Source: Oscillibacter sp. (GTDB taxonomy: Bacteria > Bacillota > Clostridia > Oscillospirales > Oscillospiraceae). Taken from it: DNA of 62,344 bases. The notes below the pieces were generated by a model. The model was given only the letters and a program-made list of their open reading frames with translations. It did no database searches and had not been told where the DNA came from. Location of the stretch: positions 1-62,344 of the forward strand of contig JAAVHC010000035.1 in assembly GCA_014799925.1 (NCBI GenBank), in the 5' to 3' direction. Shown in pieces: positions 34,601 through 51,720 of the stretch (the first letter of the stretch is position 1; every line of letters begins with the position of its first letter). A program made the translations under genes and the position numbers.

Positions 34601-34621
34601 TTCGCGCCCTTTTGGCGCGAA
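34601..34621. terminator. Terminator after the SpoU methyltransferase gene
   Basis: An 8-bp stem (34601-34608 with 34614-34621) with CTTTT loop, eight bases past the stop codon. There is no downstream U-run. Confidence 0.5.
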
Positions 34622-34639: not shown

Positions 34640-35170
34640 GCAGCCCCGGGGCCTGCGCGGCCCCGGACCCTGCGGGTACTTTTGCCGCGCGGCAAAAGTA
34701 CCCAAAAACGCGCTTAAACCTACGGTTTAAGAATCCCTTTTGGGCGTCGCCCGATGGGCGACACCTCATGTTTTGATTTGTTTTGCGCGGGTCCTGTAGT
34801 CTGTCCGGTCTAAACCGGGCTATGGGTGCGGTTTCTGCTGCGGTACGTCTATTACAGGATGTTGTCGGGGGTCCCTACCGTCTTGCTTTGGGTTCTCCCG
34901 CGTGAAACTGCACGGTTCTGGCGGTGGGTAGGTAGTCAAGAGAGAAGCGGCTGAGCTTCCTCTGGCTCTCGATAGAATCCGTGGGTAGACGAACAATCCG
35001 GCGCACCAACGAAGGCATTGAAACAGAACAGACCAGTCATCGTCGGAGCGAAAACAATAACCCCCGTAGTTCAGGGGGATTCTCAAGGGGGCCCGCCCCC
35101 TTGAGGGCACTTTTGGTACTTTTCCTGCAAGGGAAAAGTACGCCCCGCCCGGCAGGGCGAGGCCGGGATA
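34640..35170 (+). repeat. Large structured intergenic element, copy A (candidate ncRNA or mobile DNA)
   Basis: About 530 bp without a credible gene between the methyltransferase and dprA. Hairpins in order: 34646-34653 with 34659-34666; a GGGTACTTTTGCC stem at about 34674-34703; CTTAAACC-TAC-GGTTTAAG at about 34713-34731; TCGCCC-GAT-GGGCGA; then, after a roughly 300-nt middle, CTCAAGGGGG-CCCG-CCCCCTTGAG and GTACTTTTCC-TGCAA-GGGAAAAGTAC. Every one of these except the first has a counterpart, in order, in copy B at 40745-41365, and paired bases differ in a compensating way. A conserved core near 34944-35012 (AAGCGGCT.AGCTTCCTCTGG, then GTAGACGA and AATCCGGCGC) is shared. The strand is assigned by convention only. 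Confidence 0.65.
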
Positions 35171-38889: not shown

Positions 38890-39144
38890 TCAGAGCCGGG
38901 ACAATTCCTGGCCGATGGCAAGCCCGGCCTGAAAGGCGGCTTCCTGTGTGATGGAGGAACAGAATTCCCAGTTCTGGCGAAGCTCGTCCAGAAGCTTCAG
39001 CTGGTCCGGGGGAAGAAGCTGACGGAGCTTTGTTTCCGTCTTTTCCTCCGCATGAGCATACTGGTTGTATTCCGCTAGGTCCAGATACGGGTGGAAGCTC
39101 TTTTCTGAGACGTGGAGGAAAAGTTTTTCTACTGTGGCTGTCAT
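38890..39144 (-). CDS. Small helical protein, DUF6809-like (unknown)
   Basis: About 84 residues, soluble and mostly helical, with the EKTETKLRQLLPPDQLKLLDEL centre and an AAFQAGLAIGQEL ending that recall small Clostridial proteins of the DUF6809 kind; family assignment is from memory and uncertain. ATG at 39144 is supported by GAGGTGATTTTT. It is divergent from an XRE-type regulator gene, and the palindromic operator at 39178 lies between the two starts, so it is a likely target of that regulator. It resembles the broken gene at 62160 in general character. Confidence 0.65.
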   Translation of the reverse strand: MTATVEKLFLHVSEKSFHPYLDLAEYNQYAHAEEKTETKLRQLLPPDQLKLLDELRQNWEFCSSITQEAAFQAGLAIGQELSRL

Positions 39145-39236: not shown

Positions 39237-39446
39237 ATGTCAAAATTATCAGAGAGATTGCTTCTACTGAGAAAAGAGAAAAATTTGAAACAGGAAGATT
39301 TATTAGAGCCGTTTGCAGTTACTGTCCGGACGTACCGGCGTTATGAAACCGGGGAACGGGAACCAACTGCGTCATCCTTATGGAAAATTGCGGACTTCTA
39401 TGGTGTTTCCGTTGACTACTTGATTGGACGGTCTGACGAACGATGA
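39237..39446 (+). CDS. Small XRE-family DNA-binding protein
   Basis: 69 residues consisting almost only of a Cro/CI-type helix-turn-helix (LKQEDLLEPFAVTVRTYRRYETGEREP), ending VDYLIGRSDER. ATG 39237 follows TTTGGAG; the longer frame from 39207 is not supported. Its stop overlaps the trmFO start (ATGA), so the two are translationally coupled. It probably represses itself, and with it trmFO and the divergent small gene, through the operator at 39178. Confidence 0.88.
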   Translation: MSKLSERLLLLRKEKNLKQEDLLEPFAVTVRTYRRYETGEREPTASSLWKIADFYGVSVDYLIGRSDER

Positions 39447-40810
39447 ATGTAACTGTAATCGGCGCGGGCCTCGCGGGAAGCGAGGCGGCGTGGCAGCTGG
39501 CAAACCGGGGCGTCCGCGTGACCCTGTGCGAGATGAAGCCCCGGAAGATGACCCCCGCGCATACCAGCGGGGACTTCGCGGAGCTGGTCTGCTCCAACTC
39601 CCTGCGGGGCGCCGGTCTTGAGAACGCGGTTGGCCTGCTGAAGGAGGAGCTGCGCCGTCTGGGCAGCATCATCCTGGAGGCGGCGGACGCCACCCGGGTG
39701 GAGGCCGGCGGCGCGCTGGCGGTGGACAGGCACGGCTTTGCCGCCTACGTCACCAAAGCGATCCGCTCCCATCCCAATATTACCGTGGCGGAAGGAGAGG
39801 TCACGGAGCTTCCGGAAGGGGAGGTGCTGGTGGCAACCGGCCCTCTGACCAGCGACGCGCTGGCGGAGACGCTGGGAAGCCTCACCGGCGGGGAGGACGC
39901 GGCCCTGCATTTCTTTGACGCCGCCGCGCCGCTGGTGACCTTCGACAGCATCGACATGACAAGGGCCTGGTTCGCCTCCCGGTACGACAAGGGAACGGCG
40001 GATTATGTCAACTGCGCCATGTCGGAGGAAGAGTATCATGCCTTCTGGCAGGAGCTGTGCCAGGCGGAGGAGGCGGAGGTCCACGGCTTTGAGGACAAAA
40101 ACGTCTTCGAGGGCTGTATGCCCGTGGAGGTCATGGCAAGGCGGGGAAAGGATACCCTGCGCTATGGGCCGCTGAAGCCCAGAGGGCTGAAGGACCCGGC
40201 CACCGGGCGGGAGCCCTACGCCGTGGTCCAGCTGCGAAAGGACAACGGGTCCGGCACCGTCTATAACCTGGTGGGGTTCCAGACCCATTTGAAGTTCGGG
40301 GAGCAGAAGCGGGTGTTCTCCATGATCCCCGCCCTGCGCAACGCGGAATATGTGCGCTACGGCGTCATGCACCGGAATACTTATCTGGACTCGCCCCGCC
40401 TGCTGGACCGCTACTACCGGCTGAAAAGCCAGCCCCGCATTACCTTCGCCGGACAGATGACCGGCGTGGAGGGCTATGTGGAGTCCGCCGGGTCGGGATT
40501 CCTGGCGGGCGTGGAGCTGGCGCGGAGGCTGAGCGGGCAGGAGCCTGTCAACTTCCCCAGGGAGACCGCGCTGGGCGCCCTGAGCCTCTACATTTCAGAC
40601 GAGACGGTGAAAGTCTTCCAGCCCATGAACGTCAACTTCGGGATCATCACCCCGCTGGGGTATAAGGTGAGGGGAAAACGGAATAAGAATCAGGAGATTT
40701 CCAGAAGGTCGCTGGAAATTATTGACCAGCTGAAGCCTGAGATTTGTCCCGGGGGCTCCTCGCCCCCTGGATTCTGCAACGGCCCCATCGAGGGGCCGTG
40801 CAGAATTTGA
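39443..40810 (+). CDS. trmFO: Folate-dependent tRNA (uracil-54-C5)-methyltransferase TrmFO
   Basis: A 455-residue flavoprotein with FAD-binding GAGLAGSEAAWQLANRG at the N-terminus, CEMKPRKMTPAHTSGDFAELVCSNSLR next to it (read in two halves) and GQMTGVEGYVESAGSG near residue 340. It makes m5U54 in tRNA using methylene-tetrahydrofolate. The final 20 or so residues (from PEICPGG on) are encoded by hairpins of the intergenic element copy B and look like an added tail; typical members end near residue 435. Expression is tied to the XRE gene by an ATGA overlap. Confidence 0.95.
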   Translation: MNVTVIGAGLAGSEAAWQLANRGVRVTLCEMKPRKMTPAHTSGDFAELVCSNSLRGAGLENAVGLLKEELRRLGSIILEAADATRVEAGGALAVDRHGFAAYVTKAIRSHPNITVAEGEVTELPEGEVLVATGPLTSDALAETLGSLTGGEDAALHFFDAAAPLVTFDSIDMTRAWFASRYDKGTADYVNCAMSEEEYHAFWQELCQAEEAEVHGFEDKNVFEGCMPVEVMARRGKDTLRYGPLKPRGLKDPATGREPYAVVQLRKDNGSGTVYNLVGFQTHLKFGEQKRVFSMIPALRNAEYVRYGVMHRNTYLDSPRLLDRYYRLKSQPRITFAGQMTGVEGYVESAGSGFLAGVELARRLSGQEPVNFPRETALGALSLYISDETVKVFQPMNVNFGIITPLGYKVRGKRNKNQEISRRSLEIIDQLKPEICPGGSSPPGFCNGPIEGPCRI

Positions 40811-41365
40811 TTGTGCATGACCCCTCGATGGGGTCATTGCACAATCGTGGACCCCTCGGTTACTTTTGTCCTGTGACAAAAGTAACCGAAAACACACCAA
40901 AACCTACGGTTTTGGATTCCCTTGGGCATCGCCTGCGGCGACGCTTTATGTGTTGATTATTTTGCACAACGAGGTCCTCCACTCTTTTGTAAGTGCCTAT
41001 CAGAACCCGCCGGTGCTTACTTCTACGCACGACGCGCTAACGGTTGTCGTTGGGCAACATGCTGGGGGTCTCTGCGTCTACCGGTTTTGACTTTTCGTCA
41101 GCGCTGCGTCTTATGGCGATGGTCAAAAACCGATTGGAGAAGCGGCTTAGCTTCCTCTGGCTCTCGTTAGAACAAGCGGGTAGACGAAAAATCCGGCGCG
41201 TTCTGATCGGTGCTGTCGGTAGAACTAAACCAGTCAGGTCGCAGCGCAAATAAACAGACAATTCAGGGGATTCTCAAGGGCGGCGAAGCCCCCTTGAGCG
41301 TGCTTTTGCTGCTTTTCCCACGAGGGAAAAGCAGGCCCTGCGGCGGCAGCCGCAAAGCTGATTTC
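40745..41365 (+). repeat. Large structured intergenic element, copy B (candidate ncRNA or mobile DNA)
   Basis: Homologous to copy A at 34640-35170. Hairpins: GGGGGC-TCCTC-GCCCCC near 40751, then two back-to-back long stems at 40771-40806 and 40809-40846. The GGTTACTTTTGTC stem (about 40857-40886), CCAAAACC-TAC-GGTTTTGG (about 40898-40916) and TCGCC-TGC-GGCGA follow. After a 300-nt middle come CTCAAGGG...CCCTTGAG (41272-41297) and CTGCTTTTCC-CACGA-GGGAAAAGCAG. Compared with copy A, stem pairs change together (T-A to C-G, G-C to C-G). The first hairpins overlap the 3' end of trmFO. No gene is seen in 40811-41414. Confidence 0.65.
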
Positions 41366-41414
41366 AGCAGAGAGGCAGCTTTCCCCGCAGGGCAGAAAAG
41401 AAAAGAGGGAAAAA

Positions 41415-51629: not shown

Positions 51630-51720
51630 GCAGCGGTATCGAAGTGGTTATAACGGCCCTGACTCGAAATCAGGTGTATCAGCAATGATACCGTGGGTTC
51701 GAATCCCACCCGCTGCGCCA
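51630..51720 (+). tRNA. tRNA-Ser (anticodon CGA)
   Basis: Complete class II tRNA with encoded CCA. Acceptor GCAGCGG (51630-51636) pairs with CCGCTGC (51710-51716), with G as discriminator. The anticodon stem CCTGA/TCAGG encloses CTCGAAA, giving anticodon CGA (51665-51667) for UCG. The long variable arm GTATCA/TGATAC and the T-arm GTGGG-TTCGAAT-CCCAC are typical of tRNA-Ser. Three 5'-half copies precede it, so this copy was probably rebuilt by an integrating element. Confidence 0.95.

Follow-up and report, generated by a model that had tools for sequence, protein, structure and literature searches.

Structured, inverted intergenic elements in an Oscillibacter genome: a large family best read as non-autonomous mobile DNA

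Introduction

Two intergenic regions of the window (the whole 62,344-nucleotide stretch of Oscillibacter DNA analysed), hereafter copies A and B, raise the question of what kind of element changes its paired bases in concert while carrying no shared reading frame. A preliminary description, made from the letters of the window, offered two answers, a large structured RNA or a structure-driven mobile DNA. The observation behind it is confirmed here and is larger than described; of the two answers, mobile DNA is supported and the large structured RNA is not, and the best reading of the sequences is that of a large new family of mobile DNA, structured, inverted and non-autonomous.

Results

Architecture of copies A and B

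The two copies were said to share blocks in one common order, and they align accordingly, at 75% over 122 nt and 74% over 221 nt. Each of the three compensated stems named for the pair was found at its position, and no open frame of at least 80 aa spans either copy; in any frame, only 8 seven-residue words are common to both, and these derive from a short conserved core. The GC content of the two copies measured (A 58.0%, B 54.8%) brackets that of the window (57.3%), so that neither is AT-rich. The interval first given for A (34640-35170) does hold a real element but is too short, as the inserted unit, defined by HMM hits and by visual comparison with the empty site of G019 (L145) and of others, extends from ∼34594 to ∼35167 on the + strand with approximate boundaries, the left one lying directly behind the upstream gene's stop codon.

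Reading copy A from left to right (all features on the + strand), an outer GC hairpin (TTCGCGCC..GGCGCGAA, 34601-34621), which resembles outer hairpins of other copies and could be partly target-derived, is followed by the left module. This consists of hairpin 1 (34646-34666), hairpin 2 with its TACTTTT stem (34674-34703) and GCGC tetraloop (34687-34690), a CGCGC strand (34709-34713) that is complementary to the hairpin 2 loop as its pseudoknot partner, and hairpin 3 (CTTAAACC-TAC-GGTTTAAG, 34713-34731). The interior HMM then covers two half-interiors (34743-35061) that include the conserved core AGAAGCGGCTGAGCTTCCTCTGG (34943-34965). The right module is inverted and comprises hairpin 3 (35082-35105), the strand opposite the hairpin 2 loop (35105-35109, here with 3 matched bases) and hairpin 2 (GTACTTTTCC..GGAAAAGTAC, 35116-35141), after which a second outer GC hairpin (35142-35163) closes the element. 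Copy B (40747-41375, + strand, boundaries approximate) has its left hairpin 2 at 40856-40889, its left hairpin 3 (CCAAAACC-TAC-GGTTTTGG) at 40897-40915 and its right hairpin 2 (CTGCTTTTCCC..GGGAAAAGCAG) at 41309-41334. Its left end also holds a nested double-hairpin repeat (40770-40846, + strand) that is unrelated to the element family. This repeat, two tandem hairpins with ATCGA loops, is found elsewhere in the genome (e.g. C65:29149-29261 and C16:24344-24465), and in G003 and G019 is lodged within right-hand modules of the site A and site B elements (L147, L154). An Rfam hit to mir-BART10 (40769-40846; 43.9 bits against a gathering score of 70) falls on it and was taken as chance hairpin similarity.

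The preliminary description had missed that the two ends of an element are inverted versions of one module. In an alignment of 45 copies from the same genome, the left end is composed of hairpin 1 (CCGGGGC..GCCCCGG), hairpin 2 (NNTACTTTTNNN, with a tetraloop), an A-tract, a short strand, hairpin 3 and the word GAATCCC, and the right end is composed of inverted hairpins 2 and 3 and the strand, together with its own outer GC hairpin. Beyond hairpin 1 lie variable GC hairpins, and the element ends have no sharp boundary. Like the ends, the interior has two sides: some copies (L207, L223) contain a facing pair of similar half-interiors, and in A and B a single run of the interior model, made of two different halves, lies between the ends. 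Two-sided ends and a two-sided interior imply that the element is made of two half-elements placed head to head, each comprising an end module (hairpins and the GAATCCC word) and a half-interior, with a standard copy of about 460-590 nt. Terminal inverted repeats and inverted pairs of palindromic units are thus present in the family, and a transposase gene inside the element is absent.

Copy number and distribution

In its own 2.97-Mb genome, BLAST at E ≤ 0.001 gave 66 matches for A and 72 for B, fragments and palindromic double hits included. A search with a covariance model of the end module returned 144 matches at E ≤ 0.01, some of which match by construction since the model was built from the A/B family. 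After removal of overlaps these resolve into 40 inward-facing pairs (each a + hit with a - hit after it at no more than 2.5 kb) and 38 single modules. The spans of 36 of the 40 pairs fall between 460 and 587 nt, and the others measure 1001, 1098, 1574 and 2162 nt. By clustering of HMM hits in 70 loci of this genome, a count that leaves aside B's locus and others from B's BLAST search, 52 distinct elements of at least 250 nt were obtained. With elements of roughly 500 nt, the 40 paired and 38 single ends would bring the family to the order of 1% of the genome.

Presence within the genus is patchy: 15 of 25 genomes, this one counted, match the right half of A. Across the order, matches at E ≤ 1e-6 come from 11 of 295 genomes (this one again counted), which belong to 7 of 149 genera; under the strict filters applied, these counts are lower bounds. 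Five genomes of another family of the order (genus g23 of f7) each hold from 10 to at least 14 matches among the matches listed. In one of them (G054), 12 inward pairs spanning 515-526 nt account for 24 of the 35 matches, and their interior differs from that of own-genus elements; as judged from these sequences, the end architecture in the second family is the same and the interior different. A phage or plasmid origin was not indicated: A had no match among 50,697 phage records or 72,556 plasmid records, and two exact-pattern scans of viral contigs returned nothing. Among the papers listed by literature searches on such repeats or on these bacteria, titles and the opening parts of abstracts give no description of the family.

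Insertion sites

Relatives keep the gene order around both copies, namely a SpoU-like gene and dprA at site A and a trmFO-like gene and plsX at site B. The name dprA rests on a Pfam scan of the neighbours (DNA_processg_A), and the SpoU-like, trmFO-like and plsX genes are presumed to be such from recognition of their reading frames. Empty sites in relatives, the observation suggested for distinguishing a mobile DNA, are found at both positions. Among 11 relatives' stretches for site A, 2 carry an element (in opposite orientation in G006 and rearranged in G003) and 9 have no recognisable element; among 9 stretches for site B, the corresponding numbers are 4 and 5. Two of these 'empty' stretches (L143 of G021 at A and L158 of G020 at B) hold similarly designed hairpins, in which strand-plus-hairpin modules (CTTTTTG, then CTTTTTC..GAAAAAG) lie upstream of the dprA-like and plsX-like genes and are perhaps a smaller relative of the end module. 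The matched ends at site A lie about 600 nt apart here, compared with about 40 nt in G019 and 33 nt in G009. At site B, roughly the final 20 codons of the upstream TrmFO-like frame (39443-40810) come from the left end of the element; in relatives such as G009 and G019 this frame ends earlier.

The dozens of copies lie beside unrelated genes: 102 neighbours gave 95 Pfam families, none of which occurs in more than two among the matches listed (25 of the 95). Together with the inverted-repeat ends, the empty orthologous sites and the opposite orientation at one site, this makes mobility of the family well supported by sequence comparison. Gene orientations around 50 elements (<< 16, >> 15, >< 12, <> 7) were taken from the longest open frame, a crude guide in GC-rich DNA; where the neighbours are co-directional, the element points the same way in 19 cases and the opposite way in 12. 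No target-site duplication was found in 103 flank pairs. Direct flank similarity was 19.9 within elements versus 17.9 between elements (p = 0.11) with ends that are not sharply defined and one artefact row (L160, score 200) that inflates the within-element mean, and inverted flank similarity was 21.0 versus 22.0.

Covariation and the loop-strand match

That paired bases change together was borne out, and the covariation extends to the family-wide alignment of end modules. In alignment A1, which retains 37 of 44 left-type modules (4 are omitted, B among them, with the nested double hairpin in place of hairpin 1, and 3 were moved to A2), 97.1% of cells are paired, and the covariation score is 0.441 versus 0.156 for shuffled and 0.017-0.081 for slid partners. 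A further covariation, missed before, is that the loop of the TACTTTT hairpin (hairpin 2) pairs with the strand just inside it, as in GTGG/CCAC, CACG/CGTG and GCGCG/CGCGC. The three core loop-strand pairs are standard in 37 of 37 A1 modules; they are represented by two, three and four pair types, without exception Watson-Crick. Of 225 parsed modules, 164 have at least 4 matched loop/strand bases (shuffled mean 37.6, maximum 54), as do 100 of 137 distinct loop/strand combinations (shuffled mean 23.1, maximum 37); a recount over the genus with shorter strands gave 85 of 128 distinct combinations (shuffled mean 20.2, maximum 31). As the copies are related, shuffles overstate the significance, an effect that slid controls and counts of distinct combinations lessen but do not remove; dropping modules with a similarity ratio over 0.90 to another kept 81 of 203. 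In the other family (f7), 6 of 8 distinct combinations from 33 modules match versus a shuffled mean of 4.0 and maximum of 7, a comparison of few combinations.

Orthologous copies in sister species of f7 exhibit two-sided stem changes (left hairpin 2 of L280/L231 and right hairpin 2 of L287/L295), and the same comparison also yields one-sided changes that create mismatches (left hairpin 2 of L282 and L287). The two-sided changes hint at selection on resident copies, gene conversion or arm-to-arm templated correction. The last of these bears on a doubtful but serious alternative, in which the elements are ordinary double-stranded MITEs (miniature inverted-repeat transposable elements) moved by a DDE-type transposase and the hairpins are long, partly palindromic terminal repeats whose fold is not read. 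Quasi-palindrome correction, i.e. template switching between the arms, would keep these repeats perfect. The two-sided changes, the inverted-repeat ends, the central symmetry and the strict Watson-Crick stems, in which A1 exceptions are nearly equal (14 G-T and 15 A-C in 1,153 cells, about 1% each way), all agree with such an origin. The loop-strand pairs do not, as these 3-5 bases lie outside the stem, are left unexplained by arm-to-arm correction and hold in every A1 module; the base composition of A and B and the flanks, with no target-site duplication seen, also speak against it.

Folding and strand preference

A functional RNA on one strand is expected to fold better on that strand and to tolerate common, one-sided G-U pairs. 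The reading of the elements as multiplied members of a functional structured RNA family, which would act either from one strand or as the 3' ends of outward transcripts, draws on the strong compensatory evolution described above and on the folding of A, which beats shuffles on both strands (z -6.9 on the + strand, -4.7 on the other). It also draws on the A-rich linker between hairpin 2 and its partner strand, such linkers being typical of RNA pseudoknots, and on 6 terminator-like sites in A versus 1.0 expected, counted on both strands. Over copies, however, folding energy has no strand preference: 18 of 36 favour the given strand, with a mean advantage of -0.09 kcal/mol, and among 80 halves the inward strand is favoured in 41 (mean -0.5, s.e. 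0.48). The 36 copies were drawn from 45, L025, L032, L044, L058 and L060 being out as truncated or misaligned at one end and L013, L014, L018 and L021 having been excluded on visual inspection with no strict rule; the halves number 80 of 89. As folding favours neither strand, a single functional RNA is unlikely.

The few wobble-type exceptions give a more divided picture. The A1 counts are balanced, whereas over all copies hairpin 2 stems have 36 A-C versus 10 G-T exceptions (33 of the 36 A-C at one position), loop-strand pairs 16 versus 2, and A2 11 versus 1. A-C exceptions are G-U when read outwards, and these all-copy counts therefore lean towards RNA; over distinct loops the lean is smaller (8 A-C versus 6 G-T). 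Against an RNA stand the absence of promoter-like sites in A in a simple scan (0 versus 0.3 expected), the unclear orientation relative to co-directional genes (19 versus 12) and the 10 of 25 genomes of the genus without a match. At the gathering score, the Rfam scan of the window yielded only a tRNA (51630-51717), with further hits solely below threshold, so that known RNA families were rejected for the two copies. The large structured RNA reading of A and B is not supported, and we consider a multiplied RNA family improbable.

Longer forms and small genes

Some of the longer forms carry small genes, either between two half-interiors (L215, L258) or between two ends, only one of which adjoins a recognised half-interior (L120, L216, L259). 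Pfam identifies an XRE-type HTH (HTH_26/HTH_3) in all five, and DUF6809 in L216 and L258 and, below the cut-off, in L120; the remaining longer forms have another small protein. Among the papers searched, none mentions DUF6809. XRE-type frames also adjoin the site B elements of G006 and G019 (L151, L154). The genes within these forms, together with gene 3' ends that extend up to or into the half-interior in L215, L216, L258 and L259, are what would be expected if half-elements were 3'-end cassettes of small regulator genes (XRE-type and DUF6809) and standard copies their gene-less leftovers. The cases are few in independent terms, however, since L258/L216 and L259/L215 each represent a single site shared by G000 and G003, and the site of L120 is common to L327 of G004. 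Moreover, among 12 relatives at the L258 site, 5 have element ends, 5 have neither element nor genes and 2 have DUF6809 genes but no element, which indicates that genes and halves can part; G009 has the full XRE-DUF6809 pair there and no element. A module or interior hit lies near only 8 of 30 DUF6809 loci. We thus regard the cassette explanation as very improbable.

The L258 site itself (G000:C9:33996-35091, intergenic) is, by species, empty or occupied by the XRE-DUF6809 pair alone, the element alone or both, and it behaves as a hot spot in that elements of different sequence lie there in different lineages (G021, G001). A DUF6809-like frame is also present in the window at 38902-39084, between topA-like and trmFO-like genes (24.1 bits versus a cut-off of 27). 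Such matches at apparently the same place in several relatives suggest that DUF6809 is an ordinary resident gene as well. Other long spans contain what we take, by inspection, to be ribbon-helix-helix-like or sigma/anti-sigma genes (L260, L257), although the L260 proteins gave no Pfam hit; these genes may be chance neighbours.

No autonomous partner or transposase was recognised in the longer forms read, which carry small regulators. The transposase search covered one family, Y1_Tnp (PF01797), which is present in 6 of 25 genomes tested (G003, G004, G020, G022, G060, G079) and absent from the genome of A and B (G000), from G006, G009, G019 and G021, and from five f7 genomes. A Y1/RAYT transposase was rejected as the mover, as its presence does not track the element family.

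Discussion

We place at roughly 60% the reading that A and B, with their repetition, inverted ends, co-varying folds, empty sites, insertion at a gene's 3' end and strand symmetry, are copies of one non-autonomous mobile DNA family whose folded ends would be recognised by a putative enzyme supplied in trans. Such a candidate enzyme would recognise each end in its folded, single-stranded form, in which the short A-tract would need to span a 13-bp stem. The loop-strand pairing may then serve as a self-check for a true end, comparable to guide/cleavage pairing in IS200/IS605, and joint movement of two ends would carry whatever lies between them. A bolder version, which we put forward tentatively, is a new class of bacterial mobile DNA with ends that are proof-read by an internal pseudoknot and moved as folded single strands by a new enzyme family. 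With proof-reading of this kind the match can be any sequence, so that dozens of end variants could coexist in one genome and be swapped between elements. If the loop-strand match is recognised, a nucleic-acid fold rather than a sequence may define a transposon end. Strong covariation in bacterial intergenic repeats need not signal RNA, a point that matters for RNA discovery by comparative genomics.

Several known systems share part of this design. Bacterial MITEs are described as short, non-coding and multicopy with terminal inverted repeats (PMC3049150, PMC10969869) and as AT-rich (PMC3049150). The present family is likewise short, non-coding and abundant, with terminal inverted repeats, heavy base pairing and empty sites. 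In contrast to MITEs, it is not AT-rich, no partner insertion sequence (Y1_Tnp being the one sought) or target-site duplication was found, its ends are hairpin sets with a co-varying loop-strand match, and its length is nearly constant in two families. For pneumococcal repeats, one report describes BOX elements that encode a gene's stop codon in 36 cases, notes no IS with ends similar to those of SPRITE, and presents BOX, RUP and SPRITE as proposed parasitic, non-autonomous elements (PMC3049150). In a comparison by layout only, the present elements resemble these in being intergenic, structured and modular, and BOX likewise can give the upstream gene its stop codon; they differ in bacterial order, in the inverted half-element design and in the loop-strand covariation.

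REP sequences, BIMEs and REPINs consist of palindromic units in inverted pairs. They are moved by RAYT (Y1) transposases (PMC3733652). The present elements are much larger, and Y1_Tnp is missing from their own genome and from several element-rich relatives. The ends of IS200/IS605 elements combine hairpins with short pairing between two end pieces (guide and cleavage sequences), and hairpin ends with a short base-pairing check are found here too; however, the present ends are inverted rather than in the same orientation, the pairing runs through a hairpin loop, and no Y1 transposase was found. In size class and richness of structure, the family is comparable to ROOL, GOLLD and OLE. These are large ornate RNAs (PMC12286853). 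Unlike them, the family has no Rfam match, dozens of copies per genome and no strand preference.

Two minor observations concern the relatives. The elements of G021 (L338, L217, L219, L221) have the common ends and an interior with a long central inverted repeat around GTTGCTCCGTTCCACTACGCAATTGATG. The f7 elements (L280, L282 and L287 and their orthologues L231, L248, L292 and L295) are flanked by arrays of short GC-rich hairpins that vary in number between sister species and that, by their sequences, appear to be very small palindromes with fast turnover.
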